From positions 1 through 64,000 of the forward strand of contig JAMOQG010000142.1 in NCBI GenBank assembly GCA_027064135.1: a DNA stretch of 64,000 nt, read 5' to 3'. The notes under the pieces are model-generated. The model was not told the origin of the DNA and ran no database searches. It saw nothing but the letters and a program-made list of their open reading frames with translations. This DNA comes from Peptostreptococcaceae bacterium. GTDB taxonomy: Bacteria; Bacillota; Clostridia; Peptostreptococcales; Acidaminobacteraceae. The stretch's first letter is position 1. Every line of letters starts with the position of its first letter. Positions 9,250 to 59,743 of this stretch are shown piece after piece. The position numbers and the translations under genes are program-made.

Positions 9250-10587
9250 TTATTCGTTTACAATTTCTTTTATAAGATTTTTTATAGTAATAGCAAATTC
9301 TGGATTTTCATTTATTTTATTATAGATTTTATCTTTTGCATGAATAACAGTTGTATGATCTCTTCCACCAAATTCTTCTCCAATTTTAGGAAGAGATAAA
9401 TCGGTTAAATCACGACACAAATACATAGCAATTTGACGTGGAAATGAAATATTTCTTGATCTTCTTTTTGAAACTATTTCTTTTTGTGTAATATCGTAAT
9501 TTTTACATACAACACTAATAATTAAATCTACAGTTACTTTTTTAGGTTTATTATTAGAAATAATATCTTTTAATGCTTCATTTGATAATTCTACTGATAT
9601 TTCTTTATTAGTTAATGATGAATAAGCAACAACACGTATCAAAGCACCTTCCAATTCTCTAATATTGGATTTTATTTTAGTAGCAATAAATTCATATACA
9701 TCATTTGGAATTAATATATTATCTCTTTCAGCTTTTTTTTGAAGTATAGCTATTCTAGTTTCGTAATCAGGAGCTTGAATATCAGTAATTAATCCCCATT
9801 CAAATCTAGATCTTAAACGAGCTTCCAAAGTTGGTATCTCCTTTGGTGGTCTATCAGAAGATAAAATTATTTGTTTATTATCTTCATGAAGAGCATTAAA
9901 AGTATGGAAAAATTCTTCTTGAGTACGCTCTTTACCAGCAATAAATTGAATATCATCAACTAATAAAATATCAGCTTTTCTATATTTATTTCTAAATTCT
10001 ACATTTTTATCATCTTTAATTGAATTAATTAAATCATTAGTAAATTTTTCAGAAGTTACATATATAATGTTTGCATTTTTATTTTGATTTTTAACATAAT
10101 GACCTATTGCATGCATTAAATGAGTTTTACCAAGTCCTACTCCACCATATATAAAAAGTGGATTATATGCATTTGCTGGAGATTCAGCAACAGCTAATGA
10201 AGCAGCGTGTGCAAATCGGTTTGAAGTTCCTATTACAAATTCACTAAATATATATTTAGGATTTAATTTTGATTTTTCAGGGAAATCATAATTATCTATT
10301 TGTTTTTTAGGTTCTGAGTTTGAGTTTATAGTATTTAATTCTCCAGGTATAACTATTTGAATATTATATTCAATATTAGTAACTTGTTTAACTGCATTTT
10401 TAATTAAAATAAGATAACGATCTTCAAGTATCTGTTTATTAAAATCATTTGGTGTTGAAAGAATTAAGTTTTCATTATTAATATTGATTGGTTCAATAGA
10501 TCCAAGCCAAGTATTAAAACTTACTTCCGTTAATTCATCTTTTATTAAATTAAGTGAATTATTCCAAATTTGTTGTAAATTGTTCAT
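9250..10587 (-). CDS. dnaA: Chromosomal replication initiator DnaA
   Basis: 445 residues. Domain I is at the N-terminus ([21 protein letters not shown]), with a short linker ending near [13 protein letters not shown]. The AAA+ domain has Walker [16 protein letters not shown] and Walker [10 protein letters not shown]. The C-terminal domain IV helix-turn-helix contains [14 protein letters not shown], the DnaA signature that binds TTATCCACA boxes. It melts the origin and loads helicase. Both flanks carry DnaA boxes, so autoregulation is likely. The linker (domain II) is short. Confidence 0.98.
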
Positions 10588-11095
10588 TTTGAAACCTCCA
10601 TAATATATGTATTAACAGGTTATTAACATAAAAATTAATAACGCATATGTTTATAATTCTAAAAAAACCAATATAAATAAATTTTTTGATGTTAATAAAA
10701 TTGTTAATAATTAAAAAAAATACAAAAAAAATAATTTATCCCCAGATTATCAAGATAAAATATCAACTAATAAATGACTGTATATGCAAGTTTTACAAAA
10801 TTATTGTTAATAAATTTGCTATTAATTAACATATTATCCACAAAATCAATTTTTAAATAACTGTGGGTAAAAGTTATTAACATATCAATATTTAATAATA
10901 TAATATCAAAAAATGAAAAAATTATCAATTTAATTATTTATTTTATCCACAAATAAACAGGTTGTTGATAAAAGTTTGATGAATAAAATAAAATTGCTAT
11001 GTATACCGCAATGCTTGACATTTATTTTTTGACAATGTATAATAACTTTGCAGTATTATGAAGAAGTGTGCATAAGAGTATATTGAGGAGGAGAA
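10588..11095. other. oriC, dnaA-rnpA part: DnaA-box cluster
   Basis: 508 bp without a gene. Consensus DnaA boxes TTATCCACA lie at 10834-10842 and 10943-10951. Near matches are TTATCCCCA (10736-10744), TGTGGGTAA (10862-10870, reverse) and TGTTGATAA (10963-10971, reverse). A further nonamer, TTATTAACA in either orientation, occurs at 10620, 10690, 10702, 10805 and 10874. The area is A/T-rich with A-tracts. The rpmH gene that normally lies at the rnpA end is not present. The right edge is the rnpA promoter. Confidence 0.85.
11015..11043 (+). promoter_or_regulatory. Consensus sigma-A promoter of the rnpA operon
   Basis: A perfect TTGACA (11015-11020) is separated by 17 bp from a perfect TATAAT (11038-11043). 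It lies about 55 bp before rnpA and is the strongest promoter by sequence that I saw in the window. In relatives this promoter drives rpmH first; here it drives rnpA directly. Confidence 0.85.
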
Positions 11096-17042: not shown

Positions 17043-17819
17043 GTGGAAAAAATTAACGATATATTATTTATAGATGTAGAAAACATAGTAAGAAATCCTA
17101 ATCAACCGAGAAATTATTTTGTTGAAAATTCGATAGAGGAATTAGCACAATCTATAAAGGAAGTTGGTGTAATACAGCCAATTAGTGTAAGAAAGAATGG
17201 AAAAAATTATGAATTGATACAAGGCGAGAGAAGATTAAGAGCAACTATAAAAGCGGGATTTAAGAAAATACCAACCGTAGTAGTTGATGTTAACGATGAA
17301 GAGTCAGCGGTTCTTGCACTCGTAGAAAATATTCAAAGAGAAAATTTAGGTTTTTTAGAAGAAGCTAACGCATATAAATATTTAATTGAAAAATATAGTA
17401 TTAGTCAGAAAGAATTATCAAGCAAAGTTGGAAAATCACAATCATCTATTTCAAATAAACTTAGAATATTGAAATTAGATGATGAAATAGTTACTAGAAT
17501 TATTAAAAATAAATTAACTGAAAGACATGCTAGAACATTGTTATTATTAGATAATATAGAAATGCAAAATAGAGTAATCGATAAAATTGTAAAAAACAAT
17601 TTAAATGTAAAACAAACAGATGTTCTGGTTAAAAATATTTTAGATGAAGTTAGAATTACTAGAAGAAAGAAGAATACTCAATATAAACTTGGAGCTGGAG
17701 TATATGTGAACACTATAAGAAAAGCATACAATCAAATCATTGATATTGGAGTAAACGCTGAATTTGAAAGAAATGAAACTGAAAATTATATAGAAGTGAA
17801 AATTAGAATACCGAAATAG
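17043..17819 (+). CDS. noc: Nucleoid occlusion protein Noc (ParB family)
   Basis: 258 residues starting on GTG four bases after rsmG, with an AAGGATGAT ribosome site. The ParB CTPase part carries the GERRLRATIKAG motif, then the helix-turn-helix (ELSSKVGKSQSSISNKLRIL). The C-terminal dimer domain ends IRIPK and contains VNTIRKAYNQIIDIGV, as in Bacillus Noc. Position between rsmG and soj also fits. The protein begins almost directly at the ParB core (IDVENIVRNPNQPR). The 20-odd-residue amphipathic membrane-anchoring helix that starts Bacillus Noc is missing. A likely Noc site is seen at 27194-27207. Confidence 0.88.
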   Translation: MEKINDILFIDVENIVRNPNQPRNYFVENSIEELAQSIKEVGVIQPISVRKNGKNYELIQGERRLRATIKAGFKKIPTVVVDVNDEESAVLALVENIQRENLGFLEEANAYKYLIEKYSISQKELSSKVGKSQSSISNKLRILKLDDEIVTRIIKNKLTERHARTLLLLDNIEMQNRVIDKIVKNNLNVKQTDVLVKNILDEVRITRRKKNTQYKLGAGVYVNTIRKAYNQIIDIGVNAEFERNETENYIEVKIRIPK

Positions 17820-17975: not shown

Positions 17976-18740
17976 ATGGGAAAAATACTAAGTATATTTA
18001 ATCAAAAAGGTGGTGTAGGTAAAACTACTACGGTAATTAATCTGGCAAGTTACTTAAGTAAGCATTCAATGAATGTTTTGATTGTTGATATGGATCCGCA
18101 AGCAAATGCAACAAGTGGTATTGGTATAAGAAATAAAAATGAATTAAGTTGTACTGTTTATGAAGCTTTAATGAGCGATAAAGAGATAGTTGAATGTGTA
18201 TCTGAAACAGAATTTGAGAGTTTAAGCATAATACCTGCGAATATTAATTTAGCAGGAGCAGAAATTGAAATGTCAAGGATGATTAATAGAGATTATTTAT
18301 TAAAAGATATTATTGATGTAATTAAAGATCAATTTGATTATATTTTAATTGATTGTCCACCATCTCTTAATGTTTTAACAATTAATTCTCTAGCAGCTTC
18401 GGATGGTGTTATTATACCAATTCAAAGTGAGTATTATGCATTAGAGGGAGTTAGTGAGTTAATAAATACATGTAAATTAGTTCAGAAACGTATTAATCCT
18501 ACTTTGAGGATAGAGGGAATTTTAATGACTATGTCTGATAAACGCACAAATTTATCAAAACAAGTTGAAGATGATGTAAGAAATTATTTTGGTGAAATTG
18601 TATATGATACGGTTATACCTAGAAATATACGATTAGCAGAGGCTCCTAGTTTTGGAAAACCAATATTTGAATATAGTCCTAATTCAATTGGAGCGATTTC
18701 ATATAAAAAACTAGCAAGAGAGATTATAAAGGGTGATTAA
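17976..18740 (+). CDS. soj: Chromosome partitioning ATPase ParA/Soj
   Basis: 254 residues. The deviant Walker A is KGGVGKTTTVIN, and VDMDPQANATSGIG follows, with YILIDCPPSLN as Walker B. This is the MinD/ParA form with the signature lysine at residue 11. It binds DNA as an ATP dimer and, with Spo0J, controls origin segregation and DnaA activity. Its stop abuts the start of spo0J (18741). TATAAT at 17944-17949 upstream is a probable -10 box, and AAAAGGAG is the ribosome site. Confidence 0.96.
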   Translation: MGKILSIFNQKGGVGKTTTVINLASYLSKHSMNVLIVDMDPQANATSGIGIRNKNELSCTVYEALMSDKEIVECVSETEFESLSIIPANINLAGAEIEMSRMINRDYLLKDIIDVIKDQFDYILIDCPPSLNVLTINSLAASDGVIIPIQSEYYALEGVSELINTCKLVQKRINPTLRIEGILMTMSDKRTNLSKQVEDDVRNYFGEIVYDTVIPRNIRLAEAPSFGKPIFEYSPNSIGAISYKKLAREIIKGD

Positions 18741-19574
18741 ATGAAAAGCAAAGGTTTAGGAAGAGGGTTAGGAGCATTAATATCAGAAAATAGCACTGAT
18801 GAAAATGAAAAATTATTATCAATGGATGTTGATAAGATTAAACCAAATAGAAAGCAACCTAGAAAAGAATTTGATAGTCTAAAAATGAATGAGCTAATGA
18901 ATTCGATACAGCAGTATGGAATAATTCAGCCTATTGTTGTTAGATCTGTTGTTAATGGGTATGAAATAATTGCAGGTGAAAGAAGATGGAGAGCTGCAAA
19001 AAATTTAAATATTGGAAGTGTTCCGGTAGTTGTAAGAAAAGCTGATGATGAAACAGTTTCAAAATTAGCGTTAATTGAAAATATTCAAAGAGAAGATTTA
19101 AATGAGATAGAGGAAGCTAATGCTTATGCGTTATTAATAGAAGAATATAATCTAACTCAGAAAGAACTTTCAGAAATTGTTGGAAAAAGTAGATCATATA
19201 TTGCAAATATCTTGAGATTATTAAAGCTTGACGAAAAAATTAAGATTGAGTTGATTAATGGTGAGATAACAAATGGACATGCTCGAGCATTATTATCTTT
19301 GGAAAATAAAAAGGATAGATTAAAGATTTTAGAGATAATAATTAAAAGAAATTATTCAGTTAGAAAAACTGAAAGCTTTATTAAAAATTACTTAACTAAA
19401 ACTGAAAAAGTAGATAAATATGTAAAAACGAATGAAGTAGTTGAGTTTGAAAATAAGCTTACTGATAGGTTTGGAACTAAAGTTAATATAAAGCATAACA
19501 ATAAATTCAAAGGGAAAATAGAAATAGAGTATTACAATTTAGATGATCTAAATAGAATACTTGAAATCATATAA
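18741..19574 (+). CDS. spo0J: Chromosome partitioning protein ParB/Spo0J
   Basis: 277 residues. It begins MKSKGLGRGLGALIS, the conserved ParA-contacting N-terminus of ParB. The CTPase motif GERRWRAAKNL and the helix-turn-helix ELSEIVGKSRSYIANILRLL follow, with a C-terminal dimer domain. It loads at parS, slides as a CTP clamp and recruits SMC. Two parS sites follow its stop codon directly. It directly abuts soj. It is clearly a separate lineage from the noc product despite the shared ParB core. Confidence 0.97.
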   Translation: MKSKGLGRGLGALISENSTDENEKLLSMDVDKIKPNRKQPRKEFDSLKMNELMNSIQQYGIIQPIVVRSVVNGYEIIAGERRWRAAKNLNIGSVPVVVRKADDETVSKLALIENIQREDLNEIEEANAYALLIEEYNLTQKELSEIVGKSRSYIANILRLLKLDEKIKIELINGEITNGHARALLSLENKKDRLKILEIIIKRNYSVRKTESFIKNYLTKTEKVDKYVKTNEVVEFENKLTDRFGTKVNIKHNNKFKGKIEIEYYNLDDLNRILEII

Positions 19575-19590
19575 TGTTTCACGTGAAACT
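19575..19590. promoter_or_regulatory. parS site 1
   Basis: TGTTTCACGTGAAACT matches the 16-bp parS consensus at 15 positions; only the last base differs. It begins at the first base after the spo0J stop codon. Confidence 0.92.
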
Positions 19591-19611
19591 CTTCATAAAG
19601 AAGAGTTTTTT
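19586..19611 (+). terminator. Terminator of soj-spo0J between two parS sites
   Basis: AAACTCTT (19586-19593) pairs with AAGAGTTT (19601-19608) around the loop CATAAAG, followed by T residues to 19611. The left arm uses the end of parS 1, and the T-run touches the start of parS 2. Confidence 0.8.
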
Positions 19612-19626
19612 GTTTCACGTGAAACA
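19611..19626. promoter_or_regulatory. parS site 2
   Basis: TGTTTCACGTGAAACA is a perfect 16-bp parS palindrome. With site 1 it makes the whole of 19573-19628 a near-perfect large inverted repeat centred on the terminator loop. Confidence 0.95.
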
Positions 19627-20584: not shown

Positions 20585-21916
20585 ATGAATTATGAAAAGT
20601 TAGAATTTGATAAAATTGAAAAAACTAAGGACTTATATTTTAATACCGGTTCTTTAAGACGTTATGCATTAAGATCAGAAATTGCAAATTCATGGATTAG
20701 ATATAATCTATTTAAAAGCAAAAAAATTAAATATATTGATAAGACAGATCGTAAAAATATAAGTGTAAAAGTTTATTTGAAAAAACTAGAAAATGAGATA
20801 GAGAAAATGAATTTTAGAATATATTTAGTTGTCGATGATCAAAATATTATAACTTCTTTATACGATGAAAACGAAAAATTTTATTCAACTGGAGCTGAAA
20901 TATCAAATAAAATAAGAGAAGACTATACTGTATTTAAAAATGAACATATTTCAGATATATTTTTTAATAAATTTACTCATGGAATTAATATAAAAAAGGA
21001 TGATAAATATTTTATTACTATTGGAATTGAAGGTGATATGGATTATTATTCAATAGATAAAATTAATGCAATTAAAAAAATGACTGACGAAATTTATATA
21101 GATGAAAACAATAATGATAAAAATCTTGAATTTCTTGATTATAGAAAAATATGTGAAAATATAAATCTAAATATGCCAGTTTTTATAAAAGGGAAAAGTG
21201 GTGTTGGAAAATATTCTCTTGTTAAGTATATTTGGGAAAATTATTATAATGATTATAGTTTAAAAGTGGTTAATTGTTCAAGAATTAAAAATATTGAAAA
21301 ATATTTTAATGCAAGAAATAAAACAATGTTATACTTTGAAAAACTTGAATTGCTTGAATTCTCTGAGCAAGTAAAATTAGTGAAAATATTGGAGAGTAAA
21401 CAGGTTTACAATAACAATGATAAATACTGTGATAGCAATAACATTTTTATAATAATATCTATGGATGATTTAATTGATAATTTTAAAAGAAATGATTTGA
21501 TAAAAGAGAGGTTGTTAACTAGGTTAACAACTAATTCAATTATATTAAAACCACTTATTGAGTATGAAAGAAAATCTGTTATTGAATTCTTTGAATTAAA
21601 TGTCAACAGTATTGTTTCTGATAATGTTATTGATTTCATTTTAGAATTAAAGTGGAAAAACAACTTCCATGATTTAAAGAAATTAATTGAGATTTTAAAT
21701 AATAAAAAAACGGATGCTATTATTGAATTAAATGATTTGCCAAGAAGTTTATTTGCGGAAAGCTTTAAAATTACAACGCTTAAAGAGGCTGAAAAAAATT
21801 TAATTGAGAGAACAATTTTAGAATACGAAAAAAACATTTCACTTTGTGCTAAATCATTAGGTATTAGTAGAAGTACATTATATAGAAAAATAAATGAGTA
21901 CCAAATAGTTATTTAA
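20585..21916 (+). CDS. Degenerate bEBP/AcoR-like regulator with Fis-type HTH
   Basis: 443 residues. The N-terminal 170 residues resemble the AcoR-type sensory part (RSEIANSWIRYNL is typical of its start), followed by a GAF-like stretch. A central AAA+ domain retains Walker A GKSGVGKYSLVKYI but lacks the GAFTGA loop needed to contact sigma-54. Its Walker B is weak (MLYFEKLELL). The C-terminus ends in a clear Fis-type HTH (CAKSLGISRSTLYRKINEY). I infer a DNA-binding regulator that no longer works through sigma-54, like TyrR. The inducer and targets are unknown. It follows the lipid kinase by six bases and may share its transcript. Confidence 0.75.
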   Translation: MNYEKLEFDKIEKTKDLYFNTGSLRRYALRSEIANSWIRYNLFKSKKIKYIDKTDRKNISVKVYLKKLENEIEKMNFRIYLVVDDQNIITSLYDENEKFYSTGAEISNKIREDYTVFKNEHISDIFFNKFTHGINIKKDDKYFITIGIEGDMDYYSIDKINAIKKMTDEIYIDENNNDKNLEFLDYRKICENINLNMPVFIKGKSGVGKYSLVKYIWENYYNDYSLKVVNCSRIKNIEKYFNARNKTMLYFEKLELLEFSEQVKLVKILESKQVYNNNDKYCDSNNIFIIISMDDLIDNFKRNDLIKERLLTRLTTNSIILKPLIEYERKSVIEFFELNVNSIVSDNVIDFILELKWKNNFHDLKKLIEILNNKKTDAIIELNDLPRSLFAESFKITTLKEAEKNLIERTILEYEKNISLCAKSLGISRSTLYRKINEYQIVI

Positions 21917-22063: not shown

Positions 22064-22087
22064 ATGGTTAACAGCTAGGAGGATATT

Positions 22088-22501
22088 ATGTATAAACTTA
22101 GCGAAATTGCTAAAAAATTTAATTTGGAACGTACTATTCTCATTGAGGCTCTTATTGACAACAAATTGCTTCTTGAAGGTCATACGGCTAAAAAGCTAGG
22201 TATAACTTATGTTGATGATCGTGGTATTGAAATATTATATAAGCTGTTATTAAAAAAACAAAATTTCCTTAGTGAAAAAATTTCAGATGAAAATAAGAAT
22301 GTTTTAGACGAATACAAAGATTTGAATGAAATAGAAATTAAAATTAAGAATGATATTTATAAAATGAAAGAAAAAATATTTGCTTTGGATACTGAAATAC
22401 AAAAGAAAAATGAATTTCTTATTGATTATCAGGAAAAATTATTAAATGTAAATAAACTGATAGTTAAATATGAAGAAAATTTATTGATTGATGATTTGTA
22501 A
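22088..22501 (+). CDS. HTH plus coiled-coil protein A of an unrecognised operon
   Basis: 137 residues; family not recognised. Residues 1-20 (YKLSEIAKKFNLERTILIEA) look like a small helix-turn-helix. The segment GITYVDDRGIEILYKLL follows, and about residues 65-137 form a continuous charged coiled coil. The plan resembles MerR-like HTH/coiled-coil DNA anchors such as RacA and the small plasmid replication-accessory HTH proteins. This is resemblance of plan, not proven homology. The next gene is a paralogue sharing the ITY...GIEI motif. AGGAGGATATT precedes the ATG. Location is about 11 kb from the DnaA-box cluster and 2.5 kb from parS. Confidence 0.6.
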   Translation: MYKLSEIAKKFNLERTILIEALIDNKLLLEGHTAKKLGITYVDDRGIEILYKLLLKKQNFLSEKISDENKNVLDEYKDLNEIEIKIKNDIYKMKEKIFALDTEIQKKNEFLIDYQEKLLNVNKLIVKYEENLLIDDL

Positions 22502-22514
22502 TGAAGGGGTGGAT

Positions 22515-22889
22515 ATGTTACGTGTTATTGAAGTTGCAAATAAATTTGGTGTAAGTAAAGTAACAATTTATAAAAAAATAGATAAATTATCTGAGCTTAA
22601 GCCTTTTATTGTAAAAAAGCAGAAAATAACATATATCAAAAGTGAAGGAATTGAAATAATTAAAAATGATTTAGCTAAGTTCAAGGATGATAATACAAAA
22701 TCTGTATTAAATAATAAATGGAATGACGATATTAATAATTTACAGAATTATTATAATTTCTTAGAAAGTCAGAAAAATATCAAACTTAATCAAATTAAAA
22801 ATAAAAACATTCAAATTGAAAATATAAAGTATTTGATTAAACTAAACAAAAGACGTTTGGAATTGTTAAAAAAACGCTATGGAAATTAG
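22515..22889 (+). CDS. HTH plus coiled-coil protein B, paralogue of the preceding gene
   Basis: 124 residues. The N-terminal HTH is LRVIEVANKFGVSKVTIYKKI. KITYIKSEGIEIIKNDL follows, the same pattern as in protein A, and a Lys/Asn/Ile-rich coiled coil fills the rest to the basic end LLKKRYGN. I chose the ATG at 22515 because GAAGGGGTGGAT lies just before it; an upstream ATG at 22488 would overlap protein A. The two paralogues may form a heterodimer through their coils (inference). No catalytic motif is visible. Confidence 0.6.
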   Translation: MLRVIEVANKFGVSKVTIYKKIDKLSELKPFIVKKQKITYIKSEGIEIIKNDLAKFKDDNTKSVLNNKWNDDINNLQNYYNFLESQKNIKLNQIKNKNIQIENIKYLIKLNKRRLELLKKRYGN

Positions 22890-22901
22890 GGGGTTGTAAA
22901 A

Positions 22902-23573
22902 GTGGTTGCTAAAAATATTTTTGAAAAATTAGGATTAATTGAAGCAGTTGAAGAAACAAATGAAGAAAACGAACTTCAAAAGGATGATTTTAATAATTCA
23001 GAAGAAGTAATTGATGAATTATTAAACGTAAAAGGAATTGATGAGACTATTATCAAGAGGAAAGAGGAAATAATCGAAAATCAAGATAAAATCGACAAAG
23101 ATAAAGATGATATTGAGAACAAACTTGATGTTTTGATTGAATCTTATGAAAAGAATAGATTGTTGTCAATTGATGATATCTATAGAAATGCTAGGTTAAC
23201 ATTAGATACTAAAAAATCTATATTCATGGTTGATATTTTAAGTAAAACTTTACCTGAAAACTTACCTACTGATGTTAAAAGAGGAACTGTATTAAGTTTA
23301 ATGGAAGTTTCTGAATTAAATAAGGATAGTTTATTAAATGATGCTTATCAGAGAATTGATAGTTTAAATACTGTTATGGAAGAGACTGTAGAAACTACAG
23401 AAACTATTATTAATAAAAATAATATGACTGTTAGTGAACTTAAAAAAAGAATTTCTGAATTAGAAAAAATTAATGATGAAAGAGTTGAATTTCAAAAGGA
23501 TCAAAACACTTTAATTGAATATGAAATTCAGAAAGTTATTAATTTGGTGGATTTTGTAAAACCTACAAAATAA
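22902..23573 (+). CDS. Acidic coiled-coil protein C of the same operon
   Basis: 223 residues, no recognised family. It starts on GTG, with TTAGGGGG eight bases upstream overlapping the stop of protein B. Residues 15-90 are very acidic (VEETNEENELQKDD). A more structured core follows (SIDDIYRNARL, SIFMVDILSKTLPENLPTDVKRGTVLSLMEVSEL taken in parts). Residues 150-215 are again coiled coil. It lacks signal peptide or membrane segments, so it is cytosolic. Its acidity contrasts with the basic HTH partners and suggests a protein bridge or regulator rather than DNA binding (inference). The stop is four bases before tRNA-Arg. Confidence 0.6.
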   Translation: MVAKNIFEKLGLIEAVEETNEENELQKDDFNNSEEVIDELLNVKGIDETIIKRKEEIIENQDKIDKDKDDIENKLDVLIESYEKNRLLSIDDIYRNARLTLDTKKSIFMVDILSKTLPENLPTDVKRGTVLSLMEVSELNKDSLLNDAYQRIDSLNTVMEETVETTETIINKNNMTVSELKKRISELEKINDERVEFQKDQNTLIEYEIQKVINLVDFVKPTK

Positions 23574-23577
23574 TTTT

Positions 23578-23653
23578 GCGTCTGTAGCTCAGTGGATAGA
23601 GCAATCGCCTCCTAAGCGATAGGTCGAAGGTTCAACTCCTTTCAGATGCGCCA
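23578..23653 (+). tRNA. tRNA-Arg (anticodon CCU)
   Basis: A full cloverleaf. The acceptor is GCGTCTG/CAGATGC with one G-T pair, the D arm is GCTC...GAGC, and the anticodon stem is ATCGC/GCGAT around the loop CTCCTAA. The T arm is GAAGG TTCAACT CCTTT, with discriminator G and an encoded CCA. It reads AGG codons. tadA follows, and its ribosome site begins at the first base after CCA. Confidence 0.95.
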
Positions 23654-56956: not shown

Positions 56957-57252
56957 GTTATAGATGAACTATAGACAAAGATATAGGCAGACCTATTTAA
57001 AAAAGTTGAAAAAATTTTTTAAATAAATATGCAAATTTATGAAAACGTTTGCTTGTCAAAGCATTAACAAGTGTGTTAATATACACACTGTTTATAAATA
57101 TACAATGTATGAATATTCATTATTTTAAAAAATATGCATTGCTAAAGAAACGTTGAAAAATAGAAGCTTGTACATAGTTTCAAAATGATATATAATCATT
57201 GCAATGGAGTGTATAATGTTAAAAGCAATTGCAAATTAGAGAGAGGTGGAAG
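56957..57252 (+). promoter_or_regulatory. Control region of the arginine deiminase operon
   Basis: 296 bp without a gene. A site matching the CcpA cre pattern WTGNAANCGNWNNCW lies at 57039-57053 (ATGAAAACGTTTGCT). TTGTCA (57053-57058) and TAATAT (57077-57082), 18 bp apart, form a probable promoter. A perfect palindrome AGTGTGT-TAATAT-ACACACT (57070-57089) is centred exactly on the -10 box and has Crp/Fnr geometry (TGTGT-N6-ACACA), as used by ArcR. ATGAATATTCAT (57109-57120) is a further palindrome. GAGAGGTGG is the ribosome site. Confidence 0.65.
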
Positions 57253-58479
57253 ATGGTTGACAAAAAAGGTTTGTTAATTAATTCAGAAATTGGGAAACTT
57301 AAGAAAGTACTAATGCACCGACCTGGAAAAGAAATTGAAAATTTAACACCAGAATTAATGGAAAGATTATTATTTGATGATATTCCTTTTCTAGAAATGG
57401 CACGAAAAGAGCATGATGATTTTGCAAATTTACTAAGATCTAAAGGTGTAGAAGTTTTATATTTGAAAGATTTAGTAGTTGAATCACTTAAAGATTTAAA
57501 TGTAAAAAAACAATTTATTATTGAGTTTATTGAAGGAACGAAAACAGATAGTAAAAATATGAAAAAAGCTTTAGAAGAGTATTTTTTATCGTTTGATGAT
57601 ACAGGTGAAATGATTGATGAAATGATACAAGGAGTTAGGTCTGATACAGTTACTATATCTAAAAGGGATACATTAAGTGATTATACTAATGATGATGAGC
57701 AATTTGTTGCTGATCCTATGCCAAATCTATATTTTATAAGAGATCCATTTTCTACAATTGCAAATGGGGTAGCTGTAAGTCATATGAAAAGTATGGTTAG
57801 ACGTAGAGAGAGCATTTTTACAAATTATATTTTGAACTATCATCCTGATTTTAGAGATGAAGAAATTTCAAAATGGTATGATCCTAAAGACCAATTCATT
57901 TTAGAGGGTGGAGATATTGCTGTTTTAAGCGAAGAAGTTGTGGTAGTTGGTATTTCAAAGCGTACAGAACCTGAAGCTATTGATGTATTAGCAAAAAGAT
58001 TATTAAAAGATAAAAATAGTATCAATACTATATTAGTATTTGAACTTCCAAAAGGAAGACAATTTTTACATTTAGATACTGTTTTTACTATGATAGATAA
58101 AGAAGTGTTTTTAATTGATCCAGATATAGAAGGTGCTTTAAAAATATATTCAATACAAAAAGATTCAAAAGATAATATGATTTTTACTGAGGAACGATTG
58201 ACTTTGGAAAGAATATTATCAAAGTATTTAAAATTAAAATATGTTGAATTAATAAGATGTGGCGGTTATAGAGGGATAGATGCTGCGCGGGAACAATGGA
58301 GTAATGCTACGAATGCATTAGCTATTGGGCCAGGTAAAGTAATAGCAAATGCTAGAAATCATGTAACAAACGATTTGTTAAAAAGAAAAGGAATATCTGT
58401 TGATATTATTTCATCTTCCGAATTATCAAGAGGCCATGGTGGGCCGAGATGTATGGTATTACCATTAGTAAGAGAATAG
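57253..58479 (+). CDS. arcA: Arginine deiminase, first copy
   Basis: 408 residues. Guanidino-modifying fold with [38 protein letters not shown] and the nucleophile Cys400 in GGPRCM. All catalytic positions (Asp in RDP, Glu in EGGD, His and Asp in HLDT, Cys) are present. It converts arginine to citrulline and ammonia, the first step of ATP production from arginine and of acid protection. The ATG at 57253 is chosen on GAGAGGTGG. It is followed by a second, clearly diverged copy 25 bases downstream; by eye a little over half of residues match. Confidence 0.93.
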
Positions 58480-58504
58480 CTTAGTAGAAGATAATGGAGG
58501 TGTT

Positions 58505-59743
58505 ATGATAATGACTGATTCAAATGGATTATTAGTAAATTCTGAAATTGGAAGATTAAAAAAAGTTTTACTTCATAGACCTGGTAAGGAAGTTGAAAAT
58601 TTAACGCCAGATTTAATGGATAGATTATTATTTGATGATATACCTTATTTAAAAGTTGCTCAAGAAGAACATGATGCTTTTGCTCAAACTTTTAGAGATT
58701 GTGGCGTAGAAGTATATTATTTAGAAGTGCTAGCGGCTGAAGCTTTAGAAGATGAAGAAATACGAACTAAATTTATTAAACAATTTATTGATGAAACTCG
58801 TGTTAAAAGTTTAGGCAGAAAGAAAGCTTTAACAAAATATTTTGAAAGCTTTGACTCAACAAAAGAATTAGTAGATAAAATGATTGCTGGAGTGAGGAAA
58901 GAGGAAATAGGACCGTATATAAAAGATTCTTTAGGTGATTATGTACATGATGATTATTATTTTGTAACTGATCCAATGCCAAATTTATATTTTACAAGAG
59001 ACCCTTTTGCAACAATCGGAACTGGAATATCATTAAATAAAATGAGAACGGTTACTCGTTGTAGAGAGACTATATTTGCAGATTATATATTTAGATATCA
59101 TCCTGATTTTAAAAAAATGGATATTCCAAGATGGTATGATAGAGATTATGATAGTGCAATAGAAGGTGGAGATGAGTTAATAATAAGTCCGAAAGTTCTT
59201 GCTATTGGAATATCTCAAAGAACCGATGCAAAGTCTATTGATAAATTAGCAAAAAATATTTTTAATGGAAATCAATCTTTTGAAACAATTTTAGCTTTTG
59301 ATATTCCAAAGACGCGTGCATTTATGCATTTAGATACTGTATTTACTATGGTAGATTATGATAAATTTACAATTCATCCTGAAATTGAAGGACCATTAAC
59401 TGTTTATTCAATTAAAAAAGGTGAAGATGGTGAATTAGTATATAAAGAAGAAACAATGGAATTAGATAAATTATTAGCTAAATATTTAGAGTTAGATAAT
59501 GTAGATCTTATTAGATGCGGTGGGAAACGTGGTATAGATGCTTCAAGAGAACAATGGAATGATGGTTCAAATACATTAGCAATTTCTCCTGGTGAAGTTA
59601 TTGTATATTCTAGAAACCATATTACAAATCAATTATTAAGAGATAAGGGCATTAAGTTACATGTGATACCATCGTCTGAGTTATCAAGGGGTCGTGGTGG
59701 TCCAAGATGTATGTCTATGCCACTTGAAAGAGAAAGTCTATAA
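58505..59743 (+). CDS. arcA: Arginine deiminase, second copy
   Basis: 412 residues with the same catalytic set ([37 protein letters not shown], Cys402 in GGPRCMSMP). Relative to the first copy it keeps the more usual family wording ([15 protein letters not shown]). The first may therefore be the specialised one. Start ATG at 58505 or 58511; GGAGG precedes both. Tandem arcA genes of this divergence are not recent duplicates. One may differ in affinity, pH optimum or substrate, but that is only inference. Confidence 0.94.

Follow-up and report, generated by a model that had tools for sequence, protein, structure and literature searches.

A conserved operon of two winged-helix coiled-coil paralogs and an acidic protein beside parABS and oriC: a possible DNA-to-envelope tether

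Results

The three genes of the operon

The window, by which we mean the entire 64,000-nucleotide stretch of DNA that was analyzed, contains three contiguous and tightly spaced genes on the same strand, at the places where the original prediction had set them: A (22088..22501, plus strand; 137 aa, pI 5.4), B (22515..22889, plus strand; ATG start, 124 aa, pI 9.9), and C (22902..23573, plus strand; GTG start, 223 aa, pI 4.5). A has a Par/RacA-type winged-HTH head with a degenerate recognition helix, followed by a strong heptad coil in which the hydrophobic fraction of the a/d positions is 0.88. B is composed of a winged HTH with an invariant SKVT.YKK helix, a beta wing, and then a single helix of about 80 residues. 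C has the N-terminal motif FEKLGLIE, a low-confidence linker, and a conserved helical C-terminal domain, and is a homolog of phage G gp246. As had been proposed, C is acidic, and all three products appear cytosolic, with no membrane segment detected in A, B, or C. A comparison of the window with its congener G001 indicated purifying selection on both B (omega 0.11) and C (omega 0.18; 0.16 for tadA, for comparison); B and C are real genes.

No annotated domain was found in A, B, or C, as all Pfam and NCBIfam matches fell under the curated cut-offs and the PHROGs matches were weak. Searches of Pfam, NCBIfam, PHROGs, and PDB sequences assigned neither A nor C to a named family; for B the only matches were weak ones of the HTH type. 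The trio is undescribed in the family libraries used (Pfam, NCBIfam, and PHROGs) and in the literature found.

The proposed paralogy of A and B was confirmed by BLASTP (36% identity over the first 50 aa, E 1e-5) and by hhalign of the two families (probability 99%, E 8e-18, 144 columns). The further claim that both are basic HTH proteins holds for B but not for A, which is acidic and in which the HTH residues are poorly conserved; the pI of nearly all A orthologs lies between 4.5 and 6.2, with one at 8.7. The SKVT.YKK sequence of the recognition helix is kept by all 17 B orthologs, whereas in the A orthologs this helix is almost unconserved and acidic residues are frequent in it. As the recognition helix is invariant in B and degenerate, often with acidic residues, in A, B appears to be the sequence-reading protein. 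A, judged from its sequence, looks like a coil partner and is probably a poor DNA binder.

Position near oriC and parS

The operon lies, as predicted, close to both oriC and parS. The dnaA gene occupies positions 9250-10587, and the gap between dnaA and rnpA (10588-11095), the likely oriC, is about 11 kb from the start of A. The soj (parA) gene (17976-18740, plus strand) and parB (18741-19574, plus strand) form a conserved upstream context, together with two parS sites (19575..19626, plus strand) located directly 3' of parB and outside the trio. Of these, the site at 19611 is exact and that at 19575 has one mismatch, and the operon is found about 2.5 kb beyond them. Five parS sites with up to three mismatches were counted, against 0.17 expected, and parS is likewise positioned in most trio-bearing relatives. 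Following parS, the order in the window is a diacylglycerol-kinase-like gene (DGK), an AAA/Fis regulator-like gene (20585..21916, plus strand), A, B, C, tRNA-Arg(CCU) (23578..23653, plus strand), tadA, SRP RNA, dnaX, ybaB, and recR, in agreement with the housekeeping neighbors that had been noted. The AAA/Fis-like gene is directly 5' of A in every A/B operon for which upstream sequence is present; the tRNA gene is directly 3' of C in the window, while most relatives have a fourth gene, D, in between.

Several other features of this region were recorded. A Noc-like second ParB-family protein, present in only some relatives, is encoded at 17043-17819, directly 5' of soj-parB; its profile had no match to the ParB C-terminal dimerization domain. 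The AAA/Fis-like gene gave only degenerate sigma-54 activator matches, and in relatives TGTATCATTTTGACA-like inverted motifs are located 3' of this gene, perhaps as its own sites. Further along, at 57229-59743, a tandem pair of arginine-deiminase-like genes (416 and 412 aa) precedes genes resembling those for ornithine carbamoyltransferase and carbamate kinase.

Conservation among relatives

Genome-wide searches covered 61 genomes, namely the window's own and 60 relatives, with a family subset (the Fusibacter/Acidaminobacter family) of 37. C was found in 21 of the 61 genomes, B in 18, and A in 16. Within the family, C and B occurred together in 18 genomes and were both absent from another 18; C was present without B in one, and B was never present without C (Fisher 1e-9, uncorrected for phylogeny). 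The genes follow an almost invariable order, mnmG-rsmG-soj-parB-DGK-AAA/Fis-A-B-C-(D)-tRNA-Arg-tadA and then, at some distance, dnaX-ybaB-recR, so that the trio is almost always directly downstream of soj-parB-DGK-AAA/Fis. In G013, which is a single contig, it lies approximately 12-14 kb from dnaA, counted across the contig ends; in G005 soj-parB has shifted to the other side of dnaA, and A-B-C are still found at approximately 12-15 kb from it. The expectation that the trio is kept together near oriC was therefore borne out in this family, where the block is retained beside parABS, and the synteny is stable over about a dozen genera. It may, however, reflect ancestral gene order only.

C was also found in other settings. 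Anaerovorax-type genomes carry C alone or C with D, away from parB and without A or B, and some genomes have C without A/B, without D, and without the parABS neighborhood. Separation of the genes in relatives, which had been named as an outcome that would speak against a joint system, was thus seen in part: C stands apart in a few genomes, but in the family B never occurs without it.

A fourth gene in most relatives

A gene designated D is located directly 3' of C in 15 family genomes. Its product has a short, basic tail (typically Y[RK][LVI]T.RGK), a single membrane helix, a linker of acidic character, and a peptidoglycan-binding domain of the OmpA type. The latter (PF00691) was matched in all 17 D proteins at E 0.01 or better, the L076 protein scoring 50.1 bits against a cut-off of 27.2. 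When 42 genomes were searched with a D profile, true D proteins were matched at E 1e-26 or better and were always encoded beside C, while unrelated MotB-like proteins were matched at E 5e-15 or worse. The description of the locus as a three-gene operon was accordingly incomplete, having missed both D, which is present in most relatives, and a tandem operator described below.

D is absent from the window's genus, from G005, and from G014, and in the window's genus it is lost. Three candidates for a D encoded elsewhere in the window genome were considered and rejected: the best match was motB in a flagellar cluster, and the others were a transmembrane protein weakly matching CarD-type sequences and a MotB-like protein beside a MotA-like one. 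In a distant genome, G128 (L151:970-2373), the gene after C encodes not an OmpA-type D but a longer membrane protein with one helix, beginning YRITMIAK, which is possibly another envelope partner with a similar tail.

Protein C and a phage cassette

C is an acidic, helical protein whose C-terminal domain is conserved and whose N-terminal part carries the motif (K)KSxFEKLGLIE. No sequence match to it was found in Pfam or the PDB, and its structural model gave no convincing match (Foldseek E 0.8 or worse; VIA Z 5.8 or less). The N-terminal motif was considered as an amphipathic membrane anchor and discarded, its hydrophobic moment being not above that of shuffled sequences.

Homologs of C were found in large phages. 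In tblastn, C matched Bacillus phage G gp246 with 37% identity over 135 aa (E 2e-12), and in hhalign it matched a fecal-phage protein (99%, E 5e-18, 193 columns); the homology of C to the gp246 family is full-length and includes the N-terminal FE+.G motif. In phage G the block around gp246 encodes an ABC permease, an ATPase, a membrane-anchored coil protein, and two fusions of an NMT1-type substrate-binding domain (SBP) to OmpA. The fecal phage record has the same order for the genes other than the ATPase. A scan of IMG/VR with the OmpA fusion yielded 29 loci, several of them near-duplicates, and each of the 29 has a C homolog (E at most 1e-22) ahead of the coil protein and the OmpA fusion. 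Many of the phage fusions carry, like D, a short basic tail (of the KLT.AGK/R type) before the membrane helix. Since the protein that constantly accompanies C is an OmpA-domain membrane protein, this linkage suggests that C is an envelope-side protein.

The cassette can also be described in its own right. In large phage contigs five genes keep a strict arrangement, encoding an ABC permease, its ATPase, a C-family protein, a coil protein anchored in the membrane, and an NMT1-type SBP-OmpA protein behind one membrane helix. This arrangement was found at L175 (Bacillus phage G 165349-181750), L236 (MT835556.1), and L237-L265 (IMG/VR), with the ATPase match missing in a few. The phage SBP-OmpA gene was not found in 398 bacterial genomes of the phylum at 1e-40, a search that had no positive control.

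Fold and distant kin of A and B

B was modeled by AlphaFold (pLDDT 89.7) as a winged HTH and a subsequent helix at residues 43-123. This model was compared with PDB structures, taking the best rows among 1000 re-aligned chains and treating rows within 1 Z unit of each other as tied. The highest score was obtained for the DNA-binding domain of pSK1 Par (8csh_A; Z 9.8, rmsd 1.0, 53/53 residues, 23% identity), followed by RacA (5i41, Z 9.0, rmsd 2.4 over 58 residues; 5i44, Z 8.9) and by MerR-type regulators (Z 8.7 and below). By the tie rule Par and RacA are tied, and the first MerR protein nearly so; the firmer point is the close fit of the B model to Par across the whole domain. The profile of A also gave a colinear match to pSK1 Par (positions 4-139; E 0.04), a suggestive result at most.

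The match to RacA raises the explanation that the trio is a RacA ortholog system that acts only in sporulation. This we consider very improbable. Spo0A_C was not found in the window genome or in 13 of the 18 trio genomes, while the control in Bacillus subtilis was positive; with Spo0A absent from these carriers, sporulation is not the setting, and the explanation is largely refuted.

Neither A nor B has a C-terminal domain beyond the coil, and the effector-binding domain of MerR-type proteins is thus missing. Among the top 25 Pfam families listed at E 0.1 or better for the B and A proteins (17 of each), PF04394 (DUF536) did not appear; this motif is short and weak, and was missed in the Par-like L268 as well. 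Outside the family, three proteins matched by the A/B profiles have the complete wHTH-coil plan, each with an MTS-like stretch close to or at its C-terminus (KRGWFSKLFRG, KKKPSLLAKLFG, and KSLFKIFSK), and no C gene was found near these three, which were among the weak B matches opened. B and the window's A have no C-terminal amphipathic membrane helix. In the Acidaminobacter clade, A ends with KKSGFFNKLMK or KKSSFFNRLKK, similarly to the RocS membrane anchor KKGFFARLFGGK; this tail is clear only in L087-L089, and a weaker, similar one is seen in L084 and L086. Such tails occur in 7 of the 405 ORFs of at least 100 aa in these loci, and three of the seven are A.

Two of the opened matches stand out. 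One of the three, a RocS/Par-like protein (L266:9268-9816, minus strand) with a wHTH, a coil, and KKKPSLLAKLFG near its C-terminus, is encoded in a distant clostridial genome, G508, where it adjoins a parB-like gene, 6-8 kb from dnaA and with no C nearby. In G013, the A and B profiles both matched a coil protein (L270:7938-8447, minus strand) with a weak DUF536-like stretch and the tail KFSFFNIFKNR, encoded near the middle of the contig and far from the origin.

The original prediction had stated that a match to a known phage or plasmid regulator family would count against the system. A and B do resemble a plasmid family, but as this is a partition family the resemblance favors the idea of a tether rather than ending it. 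An additional scenario sees in the trio a maintenance module of plasmid or phage origin that was domesticated; it would consist of a Par-type pair and a phage-derived C, and would now be a relic with little function. The likeness of B to plasmid pSK1 Par and the full-length homologs of C in Bacillus phage G and gut phages are consistent with such an origin; against it, none of the three proteins had a plasmid match, neither A nor B matched a phage (a viral scan with B was empty), mobile genes are absent next to the trio, the synteny is stable over about a dozen genera, and omega is 0.11-0.18. We therefore regard this scenario as improbable.

A predicted operator upstream of A

Two TTWACWGTWAA palindromes, each with at most one mismatch and with a spacing of exactly 11 bp, were found upstream of A in 15 of 20 operons. 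They are located about 25-45 bp or 68-83 bp from the start codon of A, between its promoter region and ribosome-binding site. When as many as two mismatches were allowed, 13 of 22 genomes contained the tandem palindrome, each between one and three times; all exact tandems found in the 22 genomes sit at this operon, and the remaining matches deviate at one or more positions. The window has no full site, and what remains there is the half-site TTAACAG (22068..22074, plus strand), again between the promoter region and the ribosome-binding site of A. No origin-proximal clusters of the palindrome were found in the 9-20 kb stretches searched. On sequence grounds the tandem palindrome would fit an autorepressor site and a partition protein's own centromere alike, and TTAACAGTTAATTTACTGTTAA is the predicted tandem target DNA for B.

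As the sole strong site is at the operon's own promoter, autoregulation would explain the palindrome without a tether. This is the core of the strongest rival to the tether, according to which A and B are local transcription regulators, with B, perhaps together with A, repressing the operon through the tandem palindrome; C (with D) would then be an envelope complex unrelated to chromosome placement, and the nearness to oriC would be inherited. The placement of the palindrome between promoter region and ribosome-binding site, as the only exact match in the searched genomes that carry it, agrees with this, and so do the occurrence of C and D without A/B, away from parB, in Anaerovorax relatives and the membership of C in phage ABC/OmpA cassettes. 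However, no ligand-binding domain is present in A or B, a simple repressor needs no second, acidic paralog with a long coil, and the closest folds are those of partition proteins, which may also bind sites beside their own genes. The operator of the window is, moreover, eroded, and yet B is under purifying selection. We consider the regulator explanation a serious possibility, though on balance a doubtful one.

Discussion

The explanation that we prefer, and to which we give not quite an even chance, is that A, B, and C form a Par/RacA/RocS-like tether between DNA and envelope near oriC. Of the functions originally suggested for the trio, a RacA-like tether or origin anchor is the best-supported reading, through the fold of B, the synteny with parABS, and the OmpA-type partner of C; it is weakened by an acidic A that is probably a poor DNA binder, by a single site that lies at the operon's own promoter, and by the presence of C without A/B, away from parB and in phages. 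Also counting against it are the lack of D in the window's genus and in G005, the survival of only half a site in the window, the failure to find a site cluster near oriC in the stretches searched, and the unmatched fold of C.

Starting from what was observed, that is the operon, its conservation and synteny, the fold match, the operator, D, and the linkage of C to OmpA proteins, the DNA binding, the protein-protein contacts, and the anchoring could be pictured as follows. The winged HTH of B would bind DNA, at least at the tandem palindrome just upstream of the operon and about 11 kb from oriC, and B would oligomerize through its long helix, probably with its acidic paralog A, which would add coil rather than sequence reading. 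C would be the acidic envelope-side partner, its conserved helical domain taking the coils of A/B and its FEKLGL motif taking the membrane side. In most relatives D would supply that membrane side and grip peptidoglycan with its outer OmpA domain; in one clade the RocS-like membrane-targeting tail of A itself would reach the membrane. Such a complex would keep parS and oriC close to the envelope and aid ParABS. In the window, where D is missing and the site is eroded, C may bind the membrane or another protein, although the hydrophobic moment of its motif does not favor direct contact with the membrane. The complete chain, running from DNA through B/A (Par/RacA-like), C, and D (membrane helix and OmpA domain) to the cell wall and encoded beside parABS, would combine a phage-shared envelope adaptor with a duplicated partition protein; in this full form we hold the proposal to be unlikely, if still a reasonable one to entertain.

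The trio plausibly works like the Par, RacA, and RocS tethers, while its membership in each of these groups is incomplete. pSK1 Par, a single-protein plasmid partition system of the DUF536 type, binds centromere DNA (8csh; PMC11500499) and has, like B, a MerR-type winged HTH followed by a long coil; it is the best structural match over the whole domain. Here, in contrast, there are two paralogs, they are chromosomal and have the extra partners C and D, B and the window's A have no C-terminal membrane motif, and DUF536 was not among the Pfam families listed for A and B. It has been suggested that DUF536-type proteins work with a partner not yet identified (PMC11500499). RacA of Bacillus subtilis shares with B the winged-HTH fold and the HTH-plus-coil plan, and the proposed task of tethering DNA to the envelope is alike. 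Unlike in RacA, most carriers here have no Spo0A, the anchor would be C/D and not DivIVA, which RacA binds at the pole, and the operon itself carries the sole strong site, a tandem palindrome rich in AT.

RocS, built on the same plan of domains, links DNA to the membrane as a tether (PMC11500499), and in Streptococcus it carries the C-terminal membrane anchor KKGFFARLFGGK (PMC11500499, PMC13042908). The wHTH and coil of Streptococcus pneumoniae RocS, and the RocS-like tail of A in the Acidaminobacter clade, resemble what is found here, and the nearest distant sequence relatives of A/B look RocS/Par-like. Interaction with ParB is a further trait of RocS. The difference is that the work would be split over two proteins, parA is present, and in most relatives the membrane link would be the separate D, reached through C; the combination of wHTH, coil, and C-terminal MTS in one protein is seen only in the A of the sister clade and not in the window proteins. 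MerR regulators have the head fold in common with B but possess the effector-binding C-terminal domain that A and B do not. The gp243-gp250 cassette of phage G (ABC permease, ATPase, C, coil protein, SBP-OmpA) has in gp246 a full-length homolog of C, and both C and gp246 lie 5' of a gene for an OmpA protein that carries a KLT..GK-membrane helix in its N-terminal part; the cassette differs from the trio in having no A/B and no parABS, in containing an ABC transporter and a substrate-binding domain, and in its unrelated surroundings.

The holding of origins at fixed places is known for few bacteria, with the RacA-DivIVA and RocS-membrane tethers as the models in the literature consulted. For a protein of the Par/RacA/RocS type, the present operon offers candidate partners encoded in the same operon, C and also D with its cell-wall-binding domain. 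Together with the single predicted binding site, these candidate partners make the idea directly testable. In addition, C, an unnamed protein family of bacteria and large phages, is now linked to OmpA-type envelope proteins.
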